Virus record (IMG/VR): IMGVR_UViG_3300031576_000014
Location: 30,583 to 94,582 of that record
Strand: one strand, 5' to 3'
DNA: 64,000 nt
Source: a virus
Below, piece after piece: positions 2,597-54,371 of this stretch. How positions within the stretch are numbered: position 1 is the first letter of the stretch; each line of letters starts with the position of its first letter. Under the pieces are notes generated by a model. It had not been told where the DNA came from, searched no databases, and saw only the letters and a program-made list of their open reading frames with translations. The translations under genes were made by a program, and so were the position numbers.

Positions 2597-3006
2597 CAGA
2601 GACCGGCCTCGTCCATGATCGCCTCGCACGCCTCGCGCAGCGCCTTCTTGTCCTCGAACGAGCACGCCTCGACGACCTCGAGCACGACGTCCCGCGCCCT
2701 TGCCCGCTTCTTCCGGACGCGCGCGAGCGCCTCGTCGGGAAGCCTCGCCCGCCTCCGGCGCAGAACCCGTATCTCCCCCTCCGCGCCCATCTTCCGGGCC
2801 CACGCCCGCACGGCCTCGACCTGCTCGTCCGCGACGTCCGGGGGCGCGCGCACACGCACGAGCGCGCCCGCCGTCATCTGGTCGAACGCCATGTCTCCGT
2901 CCCAGACCGGACTGTCCTCGCCGATCGTCACGAGCCGCCTCGTCTCGACAGGGAAGAACTCCGTCTTCGGGACGAGCCGGATCGCGGGGTTTCTCCGGCG
3001 CGTCAA
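2596..3006 (-). CDS. Hypothetical protein between SbcD-like and SbcC-like genes
   Basis: A 136-residue protein of unknown function, wedged between the two subunits of the SbcCD-like complex and coupled to both by overlapping start and stop codons. The chosen start is TTG at 3004-3006, forming TTGA with the SbcD stop; the next Met candidates lie about 40 residues in. The C-terminal half is rich in Arg and Lys followed by an acidic helical tail (VVEACSFEDKKALREACEAI). Its place suggests a recombination accessory role, but no domain was recognised. Confidence 0.55.
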   Translation of the reverse strand: MTRRRNPAIRLVPKTEFFPVETRRLVTIGEDSPVWDGDMAFDQMTAGALVRVRAPPDVADEQVEAVRAWARKMGAEGEIRVLRRRRARLPDEALARVRKKRARARDVVLEVVEACSFEDKKALREACEAIMDEAGL

Positions 3007-3722
3007 GCGACCTCGGAGACGATGAAGCCCGGATCGTTCCCTTCCTCCGCGAACGTCAACCGCACGAGGGAGCCCGGGATCTCGATTCCGTCCGGCGTCG
3101 TCTGCCGGCGGTGGTAGTGCCCGTTGATCATGAGACGCGCCTTGCCGCGAAGCTGCTCGACGGGAAAGAGCACCTCCCGCCCGCGGGGCATCTCCGCCGT
3201 CTCCTCCCCCGGGATCACGCCCGGGACGTGCAGGTGTCCTAAGACGACCAGCGGCAGCTCAGAGCTTTCCTTCACCGCGGCCGCCGCCGCCGCCGCCGGA
3301 TCGTAGGCGCAGGACCGCGCGGTGTACGGAAGCGTCAAGAACCTGGTGCTCCTCCAGACGAAGCTCTCCGCCTTCTCGAAAACCCCCGTCAGCCCTGCGC
3401 ACGAGCCCAGCGAGCAGAGCGGCTCGAGCGTGGTCCTTCCCCGCCCGTCCTCGATCACGTCGTGGTTGCCCGCCACCCAGAACGACATGATGCCCCGGGA
3501 CCGAAGCTCGCGCGCGGCGTCGAGCGCGAGCGCGACGCACCGGAAGACCGAGGACCCGGAGTCCGGGTCGCAGAGGTCGCCCGTCATCGCGTAGAGGTCG
3601 ACCTTCCTGTCGACCGCCTCCTTGACCGTCTGCTCGACGGCGCGCGCGACGTCGTCGAAGCGGTCGACGCCCCGCGTGCTCCAGTCGGCGTGCCAATCGC
3701 TACAGGTCAGGATGCGGAGCAC
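3003..3722 (-). CDS. SbcD/Mre11-like metallophosphoesterase (phage gp47-like)
   Basis: A 239-residue calcineurin-type nuclease subunit, probably cutting DNA ends together with the SbcC-like ATPase downstream. All metal-binding motifs are visible in order: DWH (Asp9, His11), GD (Asp49), GNHD (86-88), GHLH (His163, His165) and GHYH (His202, His204). An alanine run at 143-149 lies between the central and C-terminal motifs. The ATG start is at 3720-3722. At 239 residues it is nearer the short phage versions than bacterial SbcD (about 400). Confidence 0.85.
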   Translation of the reverse strand: MLRILTCSDWHADWSTRGVDRFDDVARAVEQTVKEAVDRKVDLYAMTGDLCDPDSGSSVFRCVALALDAARELRSRGIMSFWVAGNHDVIEDGRGRTTLEPLCSLGSCAGLTGVFEKAESFVWRSTRFLTLPYTARSCAYDPAAAAAAAVKESSELPLVVLGHLHVPGVIPGEETAEMPRGREVLFPVEQLRGKARLMINGHYHRRQTTPDGIEIPGSLVRLTFAEEGNDPGFIVSEVA

Positions 3723-3735
3723 GCGTTCCCCGGCT

Positions 3736-4071
3736 TCATGGTCTCATCCCGTGCCGCCCGAGCAGCTCGAGCAGCAGGAGCCTGTCCGTCGAGTTCCACG
3801 CGTTGCGGCGCAGCGACTCGACGGCGTGGCGCGGCGGCGTCTGCACGCGATCCCAATCGTCCAGCGTGAACCCCGGGGCCCGCGCGTACACCCTGACCGG
3901 CCCGTCCTGCTCGTCCCTGCGAACAGCGGTCAAAAGGTCGCCGCTCGACCGTTCCGAGAACACCTCGTAACGGAACCTCCGGTGGCCGCGCAACGCCTGG
4001 AAACTGTCGGGCCACTCGCGCCACCACGGCGAAACGGCCAACAGCCTGCAACCCTCGAACGCGCGGGTCAC
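3736..4071 (-). CDS. Hypothetical protein
   Basis: A 111-residue protein of unknown function in the recombination operon. GTG at 4069-4071 overlaps the methyltransferase stop as GTGA, so this start is preferred over a slightly longer frame. The sequence is aromatic-rich at the N-terminus (WWREWPDSF) and has a leucine-rich C-terminus (RLLLLELLGRHG). No motif recognised. Confidence 0.5.
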   Translation of the reverse strand: MTRAFEGCRLLAVSPWWREWPDSFQALRGHRRFRYEVFSERSSGDLLTAVRRDEQDGPVRVYARAPGFTLDDWDRVQTPPRHAVESLRRNAWNSTDRLLLLELLGRHGMRP

Positions 4072-14287: not shown

Positions 14288-14485
14288 TCAGGGCAAGCTC
14301 GGCAGCCGGTAGCGCCGCCGCCAACGGTCGCGCACCTCGTTGACGCGCGCCCCCAGCCCCCGGACGGTCAGGGTCTTCTTCAGGCACCCGTACGTCGTGC
14401 GCAGCTCCTCCGCCGCCTTCCTCGCGTCACCCTTGCACGCTTCGAACGCCGAGAGAATCTCCTCGTCCGTTATCGCCGAGCGCAT
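14288..14485 (-). CDS. Small helix-turn-helix protein (Fis-like)
   Basis: A 65-residue protein consisting almost wholly of a helix-turn-helix: ITDEEILSAF (first helix), GDARKAAEELRTTYGCLKKTL (turn and recognition helix), then a basic C-terminus (RDRWRRRYRL). It resembles the Fis-type HTH used by small phage regulators. It overlaps the primase 3' end by 59 bases. It is another candidate to bind the palindromic repeats, though nothing in the sequence proves that. Confidence 0.65.
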   Translation of the reverse strand: MRSAITDEEILSAFEACKGDARKAAEELRTTYGCLKKTLTVRGLGARVNEVRDRWRRRYRLPSLP

Positions 14486-15452
14486 CGATGATCCTTTGCC
14501 TCAAGGCCGGCCTTCCGAGGTCGGCCGCGTCCGTGCCCTCCGGCAATCTTACCCGCAACGTCTTCGCATGGCGCGCGAGCGCCCCCTCGAGCGCCTTCGC
14601 CGCCTTCTCCCCCGCCGCGTCCGGGTCGGTCAGGAGAAGGACGAGCTTCCAGGTCGAGAGCTTGCGCACGTACTCGCCGACGCGCGCGTCCGCGAGCGGG
14701 TTCGAGCCCGCGATGGCCGCGACGCAGAACGACGTCGCCTTCTCGACCGCGAGCGCGTTGACCGCCCCCTCGACGACCGCGACCGTGTGCCGGATCTCCT
14801 TGCGCACCCACCGCGCCTCGCCGAACATCACCCCCGTGTCCGCGCCCTCCTTCGGGTGCGGTTCCAGGTAGCGTTTGAGCTGCCCCGTGAACGTCCTGGC
14901 CGTGTACCCGCGAAGATCCCCGCGCGCGTCCCTGTACGGGAAAACGATGCGGCCCGCGAGCCTGCCCGAGAGCGCGTAGCCGATCCCCCAACACTTGACC
15001 TGCCAGTCATCGATCCCGCGCGAGAGCACGTAATCGCGCGCGGACGCCGGCCAACGCTCGAACGGGTCCCAGCAAACGCCCGGCGGGTCCCTCACCGGGT
15101 CGCTCCTCCGCAGAGGACGGCGATCCCGCACCTCCAACCGCGTCGAACCGGGGAGTGGTGACGTGTCCTCTTCGCCCTTCAGCCAGACCCGCGCCTCCTC
15201 TCGCGGGACACCGAGGACGTGCTCGGCGAGATCGAGCAGCGTGCCCCCGAACGAGCATGGATAGCAGTTGTGCCATCCGTCTTTCTTCGTCCCAGGCGCG
15301 TCGACGATGCGCCAGCTCGGCGTGCGGTCCGCGTGCCTCTTGTTCGGGCAGAGCGCCGTCCACTCCCGCCCGCGCTTCTTCGCGTCGATGCCGAGCCTCT
15401 TCAAAACGCGTTCGACTCGCGTCATGCGTCGTTTCTCACCTGCAATGCTCAT
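14427..15452 (-). CDS. DnaG-like primase (CHC2 zinc finger and TOPRIM)
   Basis: A 341-residue primase that should make RNA primers for replication. The N-terminal CHC2-type zinc site uses Cys35, His40, Cys63 and Cys66. The TOPRIM core has VVEGAVNAL (Glu228) and LLLTDPDAAG (Asp276, Asp278). There is no helicase domain; that role falls to the DnaB-like gene two genes upstream. ATG at 15450-15452 overlaps the DnaA-like gene stop as ATGA. At 341 residues it is shorter than bacterial DnaG because the C-terminal helicase-interaction domain is absent. Confidence 0.85.
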   Translation of the reverse strand: MSIAGEKRRMTRVERVLKRLGIDAKKRGREWTALCPNKRHADRTPSWRIVDAPGTKKDGWHNCYPCSFGGTLLDLAEHVLGVPREEARVWLKGEEDTSPLPGSTRLEVRDRRPLRRSDPVRDPPGVCWDPFERWPASARDYVLSRGIDDWQVKCWGIGYALSGRLAGRIVFPYRDARGDLRGYTARTFTGQLKRYLEPHPKEGADTGVMFGEARWVRKEIRHTVAVVEGAVNALAVEKATSFCVAAIAGSNPLADARVGEYVRKLSTWKLVLLLTDPDAAGEKAAKALEGALARHAKTLRVRLPEGTDAADLGRPALRQRIIDALGDNGRGDSLGVRSVQG

Positions 15453-15814
15453 CGGGCGTGTTCTGGATCGGGTTCCCTCAACCGCTCGAACAGGCTCGCA
15501 ACGGCTTGCTCTACGCGGGAATCTTTGGAAACGAGCCTTCTGCGGATCTCGCGCTCCGCCAGAAGGACTGTCGTGTGGTTGCGCCGTTTGAACGCGCGGG
15601 CCAGCATCGGGTAGGACGCGTCCGTCCTCATGCGCGCCACGTACATCGCCACGTGCCGGGCGAAGGCGACCGGCCTCACGCGGCTCGGGCCGAGGAGATC
15701 GTCCAGCGAAACACCGAGCTGCTCGGCCGCCAAGCGCTGGATCCGGTCGACGATCGGCTCGGCCTGCATCCATTTTTGGCGCCACTCTCCGGCACGCTGT
15801 CTTTTGATGATCAC
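15449..15814 (-). CDS. Free-standing DnaA domain IV-like DNA-binding protein
   Basis: A 121-residue protein matching the C-terminal DNA-binding domain of DnaA. SLDDLLGPSRVRPVAFARHVAMY is followed by the DnaA signature RNHTTVLLAEREI at 78-90. There is no AAA+ domain. It probably recognises an origin sequence and helps load the neighbouring DnaB-like helicase and primase. GTG at 15812-15814 overlaps the preceding stop as GTGA, which fixes the start. No consensus DnaA box was noticed in this window. Confidence 0.8.
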   Translation of the reverse strand: MIIKRQRAGEWRQKWMQAEPIVDRIQRLAAEQLGVSLDDLLGPSRVRPVAFARHVAMYVARMRTDASYPMLARAFKRRNHTTVLLAEREIRRRLVSKDSRVEQAVASLFERLREPDPEHAR

Positions 15815-15969
15815 CGCCGCACCTTCGATCGCTTGCGCTTGAGCGTGCGCGCGCGGACGAGGATCGAGTACTCCGCATCTTTCTCGCACTCGCGCAGCAG
15901 CTCATCGTAATCCAAACGCCGCCATCGTCCCCCGGCTGCGTCGAGCATCTCCAGCACTCGCTTGCTCAT
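15811..15969 (-). CDS. Small basic protein, 52 residues
   Basis: A short gene joined to the DnaB-like gene by ATGA at its start and to the DnaA-like gene by GTGA at its end, which argues strongly that it is translated. The product begins MSKRVLEMLDAAGG, has an acidic middle (YDELLRECEKDAEY) and ends very basic (KRKRSKVRR). Function is unknown; its position suggests a helper in replication initiation. Confidence 0.6.
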   Translation of the reverse strand: MSKRVLEMLDAAGGRWRRLDYDELLRECEKDAEYSILVRARTLKRKRSKVRR

Positions 15970-17513
15970 AGCTGACCTCTCCCGCTCTTACGCTTGCCGC
16001 CCTTCTGCCTGAGAAATGATCCGGCGACGGACACGTCCATGTCGTTGCCGTCTCCGGGGCGGTCGTACTCGATGCTGCGTCCTCCCCAGACCGCGCCGCG
16101 GTCCGGGTCCCAGTCGAACTCGATCCCGAGCGGCCAGATCCCCCAACGCTGCTTGAGCACGAAGATCTCGAGCTTGTTGTCCTCGAGCTTCTTCCAAAGC
16201 GCAGGCCGGTGCGGGGCGACGATGTTGTCCGATATCTCGATCCACGCTCCGCTGCCTTTGATGCCCTCCCGCGTCGGACGCTTGTCCGGCCGCATCTCGA
16301 TGTCCTTCAGGCGCTGCTGCTGGAGAAGCACCGCGTGCATGCGCAGCTCTTCGATCATCGCCTGCTGGTGAACGAGCGCCTCCTCCTCCGACTCCGGGTC
16401 CGTGTACCGCAGGCACCGCTTCCAGAGGTCGGCGACGAAGACGTCGCAGCCCGAGTCCGCGAGGTAGCCGTGTACGAGGTCGAGGTTCCTCTCGTTCGAC
16501 GGCTTCTCGCCGCGCCGCTTGCGGAACGGGTTCGCCCAGAAGCGCACGCGGTCCGTGATCTCGTCCATGCGCGCGCGCAAGACCTCGCGCCCCTCCGGCG
16601 TGCGGATCGGCGAGCCCTCGACGTTCTGCGGATCGCTCATGGCGGTGCGGCTCCAGCCGAGCGAGATCGTCGCGAGAAGCTCCAGCGTCATCCCGCCGGA
16701 CGGCTCCCAGGCCCCGTAGATCACGCGGCGCCCTTCCGGGCTCTCCGGCGGATCGTAGCCTGACCCGTCCGCGCGGTGCTCCCAGCCCGCAAGCCCGAGC
16801 GTCAGGTGCGCCGTCAAGGTCGACTTGCCCGCTCCCGAAACCGCCGTGACCGTCGTGACCATCCCCGGCTTCGCTCCCGGAAGCATGCGGCGGCGGCCGT
16901 CCTCGTAGCGGTCGAGGCCCGGCAGCCCGAACGGGAACGTCGCGCGACCGGCCACGCGCTCTTCGACCTCCCGCATCTGGTCGCGCACGAGCTGCTTCGG
17001 CTCGAGCAGATGCGAGCGTTCCTCGTAGCCGTCGAACGCGACGACGATCGACCGCGCGAGCGCCCGCACGCGTTCCGGCTCCGCCCGCGGATCGCGCAGG
17101 GCTTCCAGGAAGGCCGGCACCGGACCCCTTGCTGCGCCTGCGCGCGCGGAGTCCCAAAGCAGGTTCTCGAGATGCCAGGCCGGGTTCTGGGGAGCGCCGT
17201 CCTCCGCCACGCGCGCGAGCGCCCGTGCGGCGTCCTCGCCGGCGAGCTTCTCGACGACGGCGATGTCGACGGAGAGCTTTCTCCTGCGCGCCTCCGCGAT
17301 CGCCTGCCACGCGTCGGCGAAGAGCCTTGTCTGGAAATGGTCCGCGCGCGCGCGCAGGAGCAGCTTGTCGAGCTGCTCCTCGGAGGACGCGAGGGCTGCC
17401 GCGAGGAGGGCCGCCTCGTTGACCGGATCGTGCGGGATGACGATCGGCTCAGGCGCGTCGTTGCGCTTTCGATCTTCCCTGTCGTCGCCGGGCCTTCTGC
17501 GTTTTCTCCTCAC
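15966..17513 (-). CDS. DnaB-like replicative helicase
   Basis: A 515-residue RecA-fold helicase. The N-terminal region (about 28-120) is helical as in the DnaB N domain. The P-loop is AVSGAGKST (224-232). Further on are a Walker B-like CDVFVADLW and a LLQQQRLKD...IKGSGAWIEISDNI stretch typical of DnaB H3/H4 motifs. It should unwind DNA at the phage fork. The likely start is GTG at 17511-17513, overlapping the small upstream gene, but no clear ribosome binding site decides it. It ends in an ATGA overlap with the 52-residue gene. Confidence 0.82.
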   Translation of the reverse strand: MRRKRRRPGDDREDRKRNDAPEPIVIPHDPVNEAALLAAALASSEEQLDKLLLRARADHFQTRLFADAWQAIAEARRRKLSVDIAVVEKLAGEDAARALARVAEDGAPQNPAWHLENLLWDSARAGAARGPVPAFLEALRDPRAEPERVRALARSIVVAFDGYEERSHLLEPKQLVRDQMREVEERVAGRATFPFGLPGLDRYEDGRRRMLPGAKPGMVTTVTAVSGAGKSTLTAHLTLGLAGWEHRADGSGYDPPESPEGRRVIYGAWEPSGGMTLELLATISLGWSRTAMSDPQNVEGSPIRTPEGREVLRARMDEITDRVRFWANPFRKRRGEKPSNERNLDLVHGYLADSGCDVFVADLWKRCLRYTDPESEEEALVHQQAMIEELRMHAVLLQQQRLKDIEMRPDKRPTREGIKGSGAWIEISDNIVAPHRPALWKKLEDNKLEIFVLKQRWGIWPLGIEFDWDPDRGAVWGGRSIEYDRPGDGNDMDVSVAGSFLRQKGGKRKSGRGQL

Positions 17514-19074: not shown

Positions 19075-21153
19075 CTATGCCGCCGCCGCGCGCCTCTTGA
19101 TGTACTCCTTCGCGGGCGTCCATCCGCCGTCCTCGAAGACGACGACGCGGGGGAACCACGTCTTCAGGTTCTTCAGGTGCTTCGGGAAAACGTGCCTGTC
19201 CCAGAGATAGTAAAACCTCGCGCCTCCCTTGCCCGTCGACGTCCGGCAGAAGCGGCCGCGCACCTGCCGGAAGAGCTGGCGGTTCGCCCCGATCGGCGTC
19301 GCGCCGATTCCCGTCCCGATCTTCGGGACGTCGATGCCCGTGCCGAACGCCTGGTACGTAGCGGAACCGGCCTTGAGCGTGCCGGCCTTCAGCCCGGACT
19401 TCGTCCTCTCGAACTCGACGGCGAAGTCCGGGCCGCCGATCAGGTAGCCACAGGGCGTTCCCATCGCGGAGATCGCCTGCCCGAAAGTCATCACGTGCTC
19501 GCGGTACTGCGCGAGCACGACGACCTGCTCGCCCTCCGCGATCGCCTCCCTGGCGAGCCGGAGCACGAGCCGGTTCCGGTCGTCGTCGCCCATCATCTCG
19601 ACGAGCAGACGGTGCCTGTCGACCCCGCGGTCCTCCCCGCCACGTAAACCGCGGTTTACGTCGTCGAAGCCCCCGTTCTCCGCGTCCGGGAGCCCGTACC
19701 AGTCCGCGCGGAAGTCCGTCGGCACGACCCGGACCTCGACGTCGAGGATGTGCCCGCTCTCGACAAGCTCCTTCTCGTCGACCTTCGCGGCCGTCGGACC
19801 GAACAGCTCCTTGATCAGGAACTCCTTCCGGTCCTTGCGACGCACGTCCGCCGTCGCGCCGATCCTGTACCTGGCCGGCAGCGGGTCGATTGCATCGAAG
19901 AGCGTCTTGCTTGCGAAGAGATGGCAGTTGTGAACGAGCACGCCGCCCACGACGAAGACACCACCCTCCGTTTCTAGATTGCAGACCGACGCGATCTCCG
20001 CGATGAAGCTTCGATCGATCCGCGCTCGGCCACGTCGAAGTCGAACTCCCCCCGGAAGCGGAGCACCAGCCAGCCCTTCGATTCGAGGAAGCAGGTTTTT
20101 CGTTCGTCGGCCGCCCCGCGGCTCTGCGCGATCATCGCCGGCCGTCGGGACCTCCACCGCTGACCCGATGAAAGCGCTGGCGCCCACTTCGCGCGCATCG
20201 ACGGATCTTTCCAAAGCTCTTTGAACATGAAGAGGATCACACCAAAGAACGTCATCGCAGCGAACACTTGAGACGCCGACCCATCCTTCACCCTCGACCG
20301 CAACCGGATGTTCGTCCGTCGCTCGCCATCCGGCCAACCGGACAGCCACGACGGCACGGCGTCGAGAAACGACGAGCACCGAACCTCCCGCCGCGACGCG
20401 TTCGCCAGGCCGGACCTCGCCGATCGATTTGAGCGTTCCGTCTTCCATCAGAACAGGCGCTCTCTCTTCAAAACACTCGTCCGCGAAGACCGCCCCGAAG
20501 TAGCGCTGGACGCCTGCCTCGCCCGAGCACTTCGCAAGCGTCTTGCCCATCGCGAGCGTCACGGGCCGCAGTCGCTGCGTCTGCCCCTGCACGACGCCGA
20601 TCTGGTCCGCCCGCATGCCGAGCTGCTCGCCGAGCTGCTCCCGCCACTGCCGGAGCAAGGCCGACGCATGCACGACGATGAGCACCGGGCACCGCACGCG
20701 CGGGATGAGCGAGATCAATGCGCACGTTTTTCCGCTGCCTTGCGGAGCTTCGATCAGGCAGCTCTCGCGCCCGAACGCGAGGTCGGCGAGCCGCGCCTGG
20801 TACGGGTAAAGCTCCCAGGCGTACTCCCCCGGCATGTTCGACTCCGCCGCGTCGACGAACCCTGTGTTCCTCTGGTCGCGGACCGTCCAGTCGATCTGAT
20901 GCTCGTCGAGCACCTCCCGCACCTTCGCGATCCCTCCGCGCGGGACGGAGAGGAATCGGTTCTTCCCGTCCTTCTCCTTCCGCCAGGTCACGATCGTTCT
21001 CGGCTCGTCCCAAACCGGGAGCCCGAGCCGGCGCTTCATCGCGTGCTGCGGGTTCTTGTGCTCGAAACGCTCCCGGAGCGCTGCCTGCGCGTTCTCCGGC
21101 ACGTCGTCGACGCAGAGCCGCGTCCGCGAGTCGACGACGATCAGGGCTGCCAC
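19075..21153 (-). CDS. SF2 DNA helicase (XPB/RecG-like DECH box) split by an in-frame intein
   Basis: The 692-residue precursor is a superfamily 2 helicase interrupted by a 183-residue intein at 227-409; the spliced enzyme would be 509 residues. Walker A is APQGSGKT at 136-143. The motif II DECH is split exactly as DE (225-226) / CH (410-411). RNA/DNA helicase motif VI is QVRGRFCRT from 630. ATG at 21151-21153 follows AGAGGAGAG. It is the first gene of the replication module. Residues about 498-504 (VNRGLRG) are encoded by a copy of the 20-bp palindrome. Confidence 0.88.
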   Translation of the reverse strand: MAALIVVDSRTRLCVDDVPENAQAALRERFEHKNPQHAMKRRLGLPVWDEPRTIVTWRKEKDGKNRFLSVPRGGIAKVREVLDEHQIDWTVRDQRNTGFVDAAESNMPGEYAWELYPYQARLADLAFGRESCLIEAPQGSGKTCALISLIPRVRCPVLIVVHASALLRQWREQLGEQLGMRADQIGVVQGQTQRLRPVTLAMGKTLAKCSGEAGVQRYFGAVFADECFEERAPVLMEDGTLKSIGEVRPGERVAAGGSVLVVSRRRAVVAVRLAGWRATDEHPVAVEGEGWVGVSSVRCDDVLWCDPLHVQRALERSVDAREVGASAFIGSAVEVPTAGDDRAEPRGGRRTKNLLPRIEGLAGAPLPGGVRLRRGRARIDRSFIAEIASVCNLETEGGVFVVGGVLVHNCHLFASKTLFDAIDPLPARYRIGATADVRRKDRKEFLIKELFGPTAAKVDEKELVESGHILDVEVRVVPTDFRADWYGLPDAENGGFDDVNRGLRGGEDRGVDRHRLLVEMMGDDDRNRLVLRLAREAIAEGEQVVVLAQYREHVMTFGQAISAMGTPCGYLIGGPDFAVEFERTKSGLKAGTLKAGSATYQAFGTGIDVPKIGTGIGATPIGANRQLFRQVRGRFCRTSTGKGGARFYYLWDRHVFPKHLKNLKTWFPRVVVFEDGGWTPAKEYIKRRAAAA
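19642..19661. repeat. 20-bp perfect palindrome, copy 3 (inside the helicase gene)
   Basis: An identical copy in frame within the C-terminal extein of the helicase, encoding VNRGLRG between GGFDD and GEDRG. It is the only copy inside a large conserved gene, and lies in what looks like a loop. Confidence 0.95.
19927..20475 (-). mobile_element. Mini-intein in helicase motif II
   Basis: A 183-residue intein without an endonuclease domain. Block A starts with Cys (CFEERAPVLMEDGTLKSIGE), block B contains ATDEHPV, and the C-terminal block F reads NLETEGGVFVVGGVLVHN followed by Cys as the +1 residue. All catalytic residues for standard cis-splicing are present. A 127-residue frame on the same strand in another phase, and frames on the plus strand, show no domain, so the homing function seems lost or is supplied in trans. 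Confidence 0.88.
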
Positions 21154-52467: not shown

Positions 52468-54371
52468 CGCCGCTTGCCGAACCGCGAGAGCGGGATGGTG
52501 GTCATGCGAGGACGCGGGGGAGGCGATCCCTTCCGCTTCTCCGCGCGCCACCGCGCCGCGATCTCGCCCGCGTCCCGCCAGCGGAACTCCTTCGGGATCG
52601 GCCAGGCGACGCGGTGCGGGACGACGATCTCGCGGTCGTTCGGGCGCGCGGGCGGATGCTGCATCAGCCCGTACCAGGTCTCGAACGCCTGGGCGCTCGC
52701 GCGGATCTGCCCGTGAACCGCGTAGGAGTCAGAGTTGCCCGTATAGATGCCTTCTGCGGTGAAGTAACCCTCGGACGTTGAAAGGTCGAAGACATGCCCG
52801 GAAATCGAAGTGGGTTGAACGTCAACGAGGCGATCGAGTTGTACCGAACCGGAATGACGTTGTCCGAGGTGGCGGGCACTCTCGACATTCATCGCCGATA
52901 TGTTGCCGAGGAGATCGCGGCACGCGGCGAAACTCGATCGAACGCCGAAGCTCGACGACGACAGTTCGCCAATCGCGAGAACCATCCTCGCTATCGCGAA
53001 GGCATGCCTATCAACCACATCGCCCATTCGTACATGAAAGGCGAAGCGATCAAACGCATAGGCAAGCGCCTCGGGGTCTCCCAGACGCTCGTCACTCGGT
53101 GCCTGCTCGATGCAGGGATCACACCACGCTCTGGTTCTGAAACAAACCATGTCCGCGCACGTTCGCGGGCTGATGAGCCTGCCGCATTCGACACAAAAAT
53201 GAACATCATCGGTTGGGGCGAGGACCTGCTTCGCGGCTGGCTCAGTGAGCGCGGCGAATCTCCCCAACCGCAGCTCGCCGTGGGAACGAAGAACATCGAT
53301 GTCGCGATTCGACCCATCGCCGTGGAAGTCTTGATCTCGTCCTCGTCGCCGCTCACGGTTTCCCGTTGCAAGCAGCGACTCGAATACCTCGCCGATCGTG
53401 GGTGGACGACCTGTTACGTGCTCATCTCTCGGCGCACTCGTACGCTCATGCCCACCGTCGCAGACCAGCTCATCGCCAAGGCGAAGTTTGCCCGCAGCGA
53501 CCCATCCGCGCCTCGTGAGCATTGGGTGATTCGGGGTTGTGGTGAGATCGCGGCCCGCTTCGGTGACGAAACGCGCCGCCGGTCCCTCGTATGGCCGTCG
53601 AAAGACTGCCCTCACCACCGCCCCGGCAACCCTCGTCGAACCGACTAAACACGCTGTTCTGTCGTCGAACGTCGCGACGAGGATCTTGCACACGTCGCCG
53701 AGCTGCTGGTGCGCCTCCTTCGTCGCCTCGTAGTTGGCGCGGTTCGCTGATCCCATTATTTCTGTGCGCACGATGCGCTCGGCCCAGCTCGCCGGCGCCT
53801 GCTGGAGGAACGGGCTCCTGTCGACGATCGAGGTGCGCATCGAGTCCCACGACCGGCGCGAGACGAGCCCGAGCTGAAGCTCCTTCTCGAAGTGCTCGAC
53901 CACTCCCGCCCCGTAGCGCGCAAGCACGCCCTCGCCGCGCTTGCCCTTCTCGCCGACGAGGCTCCTGAGGATCGACCCCCGGCTCCCGTCGAGCGCTGCC
54001 TCGAGCATGCGCGCCTCGTCGAGCGCGAGCGGCTGCGCGCCGACTCCGAGGAACTCCCTGTCCCGCGCCGCCAGGTAGCGCGCCGTCGACTCCGCCGCCT
54101 TCTCCGCCGCCGCCGCACCGACGTCGAGGGCGGTCCCGCGCAGCCCGGTGTTGAGCTGAAAGACCACTTCCCGGACCTGCGCAAGCGTCGCCCGGAGCTG
54201 CGCCGCCGTGAAGCTCGCATCCCCCGGCCCCGCGACCGCCCGCGCCAGGCGGCTCTCCAGGTCGCGCTCCGCTCGCTCGAGCAGCTTGCGCGTCCTCCCT
54301 ACGCCCGTCTGCTCCGCGAACACGTGCGCCGCCCGCTTGTCCGCGGCGAGCACCTCGCGTGCGGTCTTCAC
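52464..54371 (-). CDS. MuF/SPP1 gp7-like minor head protein precursor with intein
   Basis: A 635-residue precursor; splicing would remove residues 241-546 and give a 329-residue head morphogenesis protein. The N-extein is helical, with SPFLQQAPASWAERIVRTEIMG typical of the MuF family. The conserved motif D-x-R-T...HG is split as DDRTA / SDSYAVHGQ. The gene follows the portal gene by GTGA overlap, the standard MuF position. A plus-strand gene lies wholly inside the intein region. Function: an internal head protein needed for assembly or genome ejection. Confidence 0.82.
   Translation of the reverse strand: MKTAREVLAADKRAAHVFAEQTGVGRTRKLLERAERDLESRLARAVAGPGDASFTAAQLRATLAQVREVVFQLNTGLRGTALDVGAAAAEKAAESTARYLAARDREFLGVGAQPLALDEARMLEAALDGSRGSILRSLVGEKGKRGEGVLARYGAGVVEHFEKELQLGLVSRRSWDSMRTSIVDRSPFLQQAPASWAERIVRTEIMGSANRANYEATKEAHQQLGDVCKILVATFDDRTACLVGSTRVAGAVVRAVFRRPYEGPAARFVTEAGRDLTTTPNHPMLTRRGWVAAGKLRLGDELVCDGGHERTSAPRDEHVTGRPPTIGEVFESLLATGNRERRRGRDQDFHGDGSNRDIDVLRSHGELRLGRFAALTEPAAKQVLAPTDDVHFCVECGRLISPRTCADMVCFRTRAWCDPCIEQAPSDERLGDPEALAYAFDRFAFHVRMGDVVDRHAFAIARMVLAIGELSSSSFGVRSSFAACRDLLGNISAMNVESARHLGQRHSGSVQLDRLVDVQPTSISGHVFDLSTSEGYFTAEGIYTGNSDSYAVHGQIRASAQAFETWYGLMQHPPARPNDREIVVPHRVAWPIPKEFRWRDAGEIAARWRAEKRKGSPPPRPRMTTIPLSRFGKRR
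52734..53651 (-). mobile_element. 306-residue intein in the MuF-like gene
   Basis: Block A begins with Cys241 (CLVGSTRV), block B is TTTPNHPMLTRRGW (TxxH), and block F is GHVFDLSTSEGYFTAEGIYTGN with Ser as the +1 residue. The penultimate His is replaced by Gly, a known tolerated variation. Between blocks B and F are about 180 residues, including a FCVECG...CDPC Cys cluster, without DOD-type LAGLIDADG motifs on this strand. Confidence 0.88.
52794..53648 (+). CDS. Antisense-encoded HTH plus PD-(D/E)XK-like homing endonuclease
   Basis: A 284-residue plus-strand gene wholly within the intein coding sequence. AAAGG lies 8 bases before the ATG; the TAA at 53646-53648 falls one codon inside the intein boundary. 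Residues 11-45 form an HTH (EAIELYRTGMTLSEVAGTL), 82-110 a second HTH (GEAIKRIGKRLGVSQTLV), and about 139-215 a nuclease-like core with NIDVA (Asp169) and AVEVL (Glu178), as in Vsr/DUF559-type enzymes. It probably drives homing of the intein. Both strands code, which is rare. Confidence 0.78.
   Translation: MPGNRSGLNVNEAIELYRTGMTLSEVAGTLDIHRRYVAEEIAARGETRSNAEARRRQFANRENHPRYREGMPINHIAHSYMKGEAIKRIGKRLGVSQTLVTRCLLDAGITPRSGSETNHVRARSRADEPAAFDTKMNIIGWGEDLLRGWLSERGESPQPQLAVGTKNIDVAIRPIAVEVLISSSSPLTVSRCKQRLEYLADRGWTTCYVLISRRTRTLMPTVADQLIAKAKFARSDPSAPREHWVIRGCGEIAARFGDETRRRSLVWPSKDCPHHRPGNPRRTD

Follow-up and report, generated by a model that had tools for sequence, protein, structure and literature searches.

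The phage helicase gene considered here is interrupted within motif II by a mini-intein that very probably (roughly 0.88) descended by internal deletion from an intein of the same DE/CH site, in which a gene for a VSR-like homing endonuclease lay in the +1 reading frame. This reading of the window, the whole stretch of 64,000 nucleotides that was analysed, rests on the combination of endonuclease remnants in the +1 frame of the window intein, a complete +1 endonuclease in the intein of the sister locus L180, and a widespread family of inteins built in the same way, from which the window element would be a decayed mini-intein. With less assurance, it is also fairly likely that these inteins make up an undescribed and widespread mobile group, in which the splicing frame and a Vsr-like endonuclease in phase +1 overlap over about 200 codons and DExH-box DNA serves as the target, the window copy being a fossil of the group.

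The helicase gene and its insertion comprise the following features:
19075-21153, minus strand: SF2 (XPB/RAD25-like) helicase precursor, 692 aa, GTG start, with phrog_16, ResIII and NF045503 matches
20476-21153, minus strand: N-extein, 226 aa, ending in ...FADE, with the Walker A GSGKT intact
20476-20481, minus strand: first half of motif II, D225-E226, invariant in 7 aligned helicases
20395-20475, minus strand: block A region (CFEERAPVLMEDGTLKSIGEVRPGERV), from an alignment with 32 other inteins
20296-20334, minus strand: block B region, T53xxH56 (ATDEH), T53 and H56 being invariant in 33 inteins
19927-20475, minus strand: mini-intein, 183 aa (C1 ... H182 N183), precursor residues 227-409
19927-19986, minus strand: block F/G region (VCNLETEGGVFVVGGVLVHN), from the alignment of inteins
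19921-19926, minus strand: second half of motif II, C410-H411, the Cys being the +1 nucleophile
19075-19926, minus strand: C-extein, 283 aa plus stop, beginning with CHLF

The precursor matches phrog_16 (E=3.2e-39) and ResIII (E=9.4e-8), as well as NF045503 at E=8.4e-16, which is far below the latter's own cut-off, and the host is classified on such matches as an XPB/RAD25-like SF2 phage helicase and a member of phrog_16. Genes for a DnaB-like helicase (15966-17513) and a primase (14427-15905) lie downstream. The term "replication helicase", used in the original prediction, is thus appropriate to the place of the gene in the replication module only, since the host itself is XPB/RAD25-like and lies upstream of the DnaB-like helicase and the primase. 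All 7 aligned phage helicases have D225, E226 and H228 (spliced numbering), and hence the motif II reading, which a non-homologous alignment would have refuted, proves homologous. Relatives with an empty site, also proposed for a search, do exist: 17 of the 18 close helicase loci in a scan with the C-extein carry no insert at DE (three of the 18 being L008, L009 and L010 fetched again), and the uninterrupted site reads DEVH in L010 and DEVQ in L008 and L009.

The intein is in frame and lies exactly between D225-E226 and C410-H411, and its removal leaves exteins that sum to 509 aa, so that the predicted parting of DE from CH in motif II is accurate to the residue; the split motif likewise supports the expectation that the unspliced helicase would be inactive. 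The class-1 splicing features are kept, namely C1, T53xxH56, the block G H182-N183 and the Cys+1, and all six residues (C1, T53, H56, H182, N183, Cys+1) are in place; among the 33 aligned inteins, C1, T53, H56 and N183 are invariant and H182 is nearly so. The window intein, L180 and some others lack the block F His, which most relatives have in an HTY/HNY stretch, and its absence could slow Asn cyclisation. By these residues the insert is identified as a class-1-type mini-intein, which probably still splices.

Family matches of the window intein alone are weak (Vint, E=0.0013; Hint, E=0.0088; both under cut-off), and a PDB sequence search with the window intein alone gave no match; a profile of the 33 inteins picks up solved inteins. 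An AF2 model of the window intein resembles the splicing domain of the Mtu RecA intein (Foldseek E=1.6e-5), and all 17 of its Foldseek matches under 1e-3 are inteins, intein-like (BIL) or hedgehog domains; as modelled, the insert has a Hint fold. The mean pLDDT is 73.8, and residues 91-138 fall under 50, a disordered segment that roughly coincides with the location of the endonuclease fossil. Two other arrangements were ruled out for the window: a split-intein fractured gene, as the gene is continuous without a stop between the intein halves, and a ShiLan-type insertion, as the intein blocks are present.

The traces of the endonuclease lie in the +1 frame of the intein:
19974-20447, minus strand: open stretch of the +1 frame that contains the fossil, 157 codons from stop to stop
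20151-20228, minus strand: fossil piece 1, +1 frame, MFKELWKDPSMRAKWAPALSSGQRWR, matching MFRQLWRDPKKREQWTKSMSVGQRKR of L180 with an ungapped score of 82
20040-20126, minus strand: fossil piece 2, +1 frame, QSRGAADERKTCFLESKGWLVLRFRGEFD, C-terminal part of a VSR/DUF559-type endonuclease, as found by the profile

The helicase frame of the intein matches no endonuclease family at E up to 1, and its weak Hom_end-associated Hint match (Pfam, E=0.35) represents the splicing part. The earlier statement that no endonuclease domain remains thus holds for the helicase frame and fails for the +1 frame, to which the two VSR/DUF559-type remnants are assigned by sequence comparison. A hidden-endonuclease profile of 94 distinct sequences, from which both the window and L180 were excluded, was run on the 929 six-frame ORFs of the window; its top match was the +1 frame of the intein, at piece 2 (21.9 bits, E=5.5e-6), with the runner-up at E=0.26, and the profile score of this frame was reached by none of 2000 synonymous shuffles. 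Piece 1 (26 residues) was missed by the family profile, and its score of 82 against L180 was also reached by 0 of 2000 synonymous shuffles. Compared pairwise with L180, piece 2 scores 68, a value reached by 7 of 2000 shuffles, and against Pfam DUF559 it stays under cut-off (E=0.022). The shuffles lead us to reject chance similarity of the +1 frame. The openness of that frame was dropped as evidence, 565 of 2000 synonymous shuffles being equally open, and gapped +1-frame alignments were set aside, since in these GC-rich genes the +2 frames reach equally high scores (92 vs 85). The E-x-D-G-x-S-H core of the endonuclease is absent from the window copy, which is thus regarded as a decayed descendant and no active family member.

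In the sister locus L180 the helicase is 44% identical in the C-extein scan and the intein occupies the same DE/CH site; among the scanned relatives this is the only close helicase with another intein at that position. The two inteins share 44-45% identity, compared to 16-27% for the other 31. The +1 frame of L180 contains a complete endonuclease (profile 89 bits, E=1e-27; DUF559, E=1.4e-11), whose E-x-D-G-x-S-H core sits between the regions matched by fossil pieces 1 and 2, and the window intein, with 183 residues versus 356, is 173 codons shorter. Deletion is the likely direction of change between the full-size and the window intein. Direct protein scans with the whole precursor and with the intein alone found no close relative; a scan with the window and L180 inteins together returned nine loci, consisting of L180's contig and eight others, which are Hint/intein proteins at other sites without a hidden-endonuclease match. 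The L180 endonuclease matched 44 phage records, and among the 15 listed one is annotated as a homing endonuclease, that of Rhizobium phage RHph_TM61 (132477-132788), which by virtue of this annotation is not hidden.

The family was delimited from scans in which the best 80 of 206 IMG/VR relatives and the best 80 of 225 GTDB relatives were kept. Together with eight phage loci and L072 these form a set of 168 loci, from which L090 was omitted (it is L072's contig) and in which L124 and L152 are duplicates, being the phages of L092 and L095. A strong endonuclease match, defined as at least 75 bits, occurs in 115 of the 168 loci, duplicates included; the 53 loci under 75 bits, none of them spanned by a host frame, stand outside the 115. 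In 107 of the 115 loci (94 distinct endonuclease sequences) the host frame runs uninterrupted across the endonuclease, and in every one of the 107 the endonuclease is in phase +1, with an intein-like C-terminus downstream. The intein starts immediately after DE in 99 of them, the DE/C placement having been missed by the pattern in eight (L112, L149, L168, L176, L206, L211, L212 and L221). Pfam helicase domains were found in all six hosts tested, five from the 107 and that of L180. In the annotated phage records that were fetched, the host CDS is open, the intein lies at DE/C and the endonuclease is in phase +1 in eight cases out of eight, and at that stretch none of the eight records annotates an endonuclease gene, but only the long host gene. 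The window intein shares with this family both the DE/C insertion and the homology of the +1 frame to the endonuclease, and lacks the complete enzyme.

The eight unspanned loci among the 115 were read by eye, from 500 nt upstream to 250 nt downstream. L121 and L218 lie at contig edges and exhibit the same arrangement as far as the sequence runs, L169 and L213 have a fractured form, and L163, L173, L198 and L217 are free-standing copies. In the fractured loci (L169, near 2600-3900; L213, near 2600-3750), the N-part of the intein ends in a stop and is followed by the endonuclease gene and the C-part of the intein, and the N-extein ends in DESHS or DESHT. The free-standing endonucleases of L163 (2995-3597) and L198 (2926-3504) are located directly upstream of a helicase-like frame, motif II of which may be their target. 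A hidden endonuclease has matches in 17 of 72,556 plasmid records, comprising 14 annotated as DUF559, one unannotated record, one uncharacterised protein and one SNF2-related gene. On a Rhodovastum atsumiense plasmid (L285), the match at 3001-3462 falls in an SNF2-related gene with an intein after DEAH, an insertion two residues further on than DE, and the +1-frame endonuclease is perhaps degenerate.

Inteins are also found elsewhere in related helicases. The underlying scan retained 80 of 123 relatives, and in the resulting 86 helicase loci, which include duplicates, the long or odd ones were read fully and the rest judged by pattern and length. At least five of the 86 carry inteins, four at Walker A (L010:4457-5260, L042:2936-3952, L061:2975-4006 and L071:2987-3988) and one at DE/C (L072). 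The Walker A inteins have their endonuclease in frame, HNH_3 in L010 and LAGLIDADG_3 or Hom_end in L042, L061 and L071; the L042 intein, with its start as placed here, opens with Gln and not Cys (QQALDS), and is possibly non-canonical. The intein frame of L072 matches Intein_splicing over cut-off (E=5e-15), and its +1 frame holds a 209-codon ORF with a GTG start and the Shine-Dalgarno-like AGGAAGGAAGG, which matches DUF559 over cut-off (E=8e-11). This endonuclease protein matched 40 of 50,697 phage records, where the features at the matched positions bear the names helicase, P-loop NTPase, coil-containing or hypothetical protein.

The endonuclease model (pLDDT 91.8) aligns with 3hrl at Z 12.6, with I-Bth0305I (3r3p_B) at Z 11.0 and with Vsr (1cw0) at Z 9.3, and its VIA list also includes mitoribosomal proteins at Z 9.4 and 8.5. 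Foldseek gave no PDB match for the model under E=1e-3, the best values being 5e-3 for 3hrl, 0.011 for I-Bth0305I and 0.43 for Vsr. D136, D149, H153, D162, R178 and N181 are invariant in an alignment of 37 sequences (A4), and E147 is nearly so. The +1 proteins of the relatives are thus modelled with a Vsr-like fold and have conserved residues of catalytic type, as in the Vsr-like (EDxHD, I-Bth0305I) homing endonucleases. The catalytic domain fold is shared with I-Bth0305I (Z 11.0, 2.7 A over 91 residues), at 18% identity in the structural alignment and a sequence-profile value of E=0.13; unlike the hidden endonuclease, 3r3p is named "mobile intron protein", and is thus no intein-nested enzyme. 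Family likeness and genomic place suggest that the hidden protein is a homing endonuclease.

The overlap itself bears signs of constraint. The host frame contains no stop in 88 distinct loci, versus 8.3 per locus expected under synonymous shuffling of the endonuclease, which would leave 0.23 of the 88 loci open, and the third frame averages 14.2 stops; these loci were preselected for an open host frame, and the fair reference is therefore the 107 of 115. In all 15 hand-picked pairs, conservation is higher in the endonuclease frame than in the host frame, whose variability is about that of the third frame. A host frame that is open yet so variable argues for a linker in which openness, and not sequence, is kept. 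Shine-Dalgarno-like sequences precede 40 of 154 starts in the endonuclease frame versus 9 of 82 in the third frame (p=0.007), with 15 of 222 in the host frame and 229 of 1720 at random positions. Such a start in the endonuclease frame is present in 35 of 86 distinct loci (55 of 87 under looser limits), and the support for an internal endonuclease start is modest.

In the proposed history, a full element would have invaded the DECH box of the helicase. In intact members of the family, frame 0 would yield a precursor that splices itself to give a working helicase, and separate initiation inside the intein would yield the endonuclease, which would then cut intein-free DNA at the conserved DExH box, whereupon the intein would be copied there; this internal translation, the cleavage specificity and the homing are our inference. 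In the window, an internal deletion would have removed the catalytic middle of the endonuclease and left the intein frame in register. The copy would then have persisted as a mini-intein, the helicase being dependent on its splicing and purifying selection on the helicase maintaining that splicing, and with the catalytic middle gone it can probably no longer spread by itself.

Several alternatives may be set against this history. Most known inteins have an in-frame endonuclease, as do the Walker A inteins of the related helicases (L010, L042, L061, L071), and the openness of the window's +1 frame is without significance; a common mini-intein whose lost LAGLIDADG or HNH endonuclease had been in frame, with +1 similarity arising by chance, is nevertheless very improbable, since neither the profile score nor the piece 1 score was reached by any of 2000 shuffles and a full endonuclease occupies the same frame in the nearest intein, that of L180. 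The remote similarity to known inteins and the missing block F His would suit a dead intein that does not splice, in a helicase gene reduced to a pseudogene; this too is improbable, although less so, in view of the open frame of 692 codons, the intact helicase motifs around the intein and the retained C1, T53, H56, H182, N183 and Cys+1. That the insertion is an assembly or sequencing artefact of a single metagenomic virus record can practically be dismissed: the exact sequence was seen in one record only, and the direct protein scans found no relatives (near records lying perhaps outside the scan), yet the insert is in frame and intein-like, and inteins at the same site recur in L180 and many further records, among them those of isolate phages.

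A further alternative concerns how the family endonuclease is made. Programmed frameshifting would produce it as a fusion with the N-extein and the N-part of the intein, with no internal initiation, and the phase +1 of all 107 loci is what a fixed frameshift requires, as is a Shine-Dalgarno-like start in only 35 of 86 loci compatible with it. A fixed phase is, however, explicable by common descent, the endonuclease-frame starts are enriched in Shine-Dalgarno-like sequences (40 of 154 versus 9 of 82), and free-standing relatives of the endonuclease exist, which together make frameshifting unlikely, albeit the most credible of the alternatives considered, and favour separate initiation inside the intein.

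The homing endonuclease of inteins is generally regarded as lying in frame, or as a free gene in the split form. The closest relatives of the hidden-endonuclease inteins are the fractured genes that Dassa et al. reportedly described in 2009, in which the inteins are split and the Vsr-like homing endonucleases stand free. Both involve DNA-metabolism genes of phages, contain inteins and place a Vsr-related endonuclease between the intein halves, and L169 and L213, as read by eye, share the fractured form, whereas the 107 loci have an uninterrupted intein frame, which the endonuclease gene overlaps in another frame. The ShiLan domain, as presented in the consulted passages of PMC11855218, is an out-of-frame HNH endonuclease in a phage methylase, without a detectable splicing domain; it resembles the present case as an in-frame insertion with a homing endonuclease in another frame, and differs from it in that the insertion here is an intein and the enzyme is DUF559/Vsr-like. 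Walker B inteins occur in mycobacteriophage TerL, at site TerL1-e, according to passages of PMC5050341, which also list two helicase (HEL) inteins. The TerL1-e inteins are likewise phage inteins in Walker B, in line with the clustering of inteins in ATPase motifs; the host protein is another one, and the passages on TerL1-e do not mention an out-of-frame endonuclease. A literature search of titles and abstract openings, with few subscription papers, found no out-of-frame endonuclease inside an intein.

In the proposed family, the two functions of splicing and endonuclease activity would thus be carried by the same DNA in two frames, an arrangement which is not visible in the annotation of the eight fetched phage records and which would represent a strong overlapping-gene constraint across dozens of distinct sequences. 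Such an overlap may be a natural route from the continuous intein to the fractured one. The DE/CH hot spot may be explained by the conserved box, which would be a probable target of the endonuclease. By inspection of the other frames, mini-inteins may become recognisable as decayed homing elements, and the window fossil, if the reading is true, shows the decay of such inteins into mini-inteins.

The window contains a second intein of 306 aa (52734-53651, minus strand), in the gene that the original prediction called MuF, with the junctions DDRTA/C...GN/SD. It matches Intein_splicing at E=2.9e-6, under cut-off, and has no in-frame endonuclease match and no hidden-endonuclease profile match in any frame at E under 2. 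A third intein, of 385 aa, lies outside the window near 12.8 kb of the virus record (G000:C1; L089:1501-2655, minus strand), in what is presumably the gene of the large terminase subunit (TerL). The claim that two genes of this phage carry inteins is therefore right for the helicase and the MuF-called gene and too low for the record, which holds at least three. The third intein matches Hint_2 over cut-off and LAGLIDADG_3 just under it.
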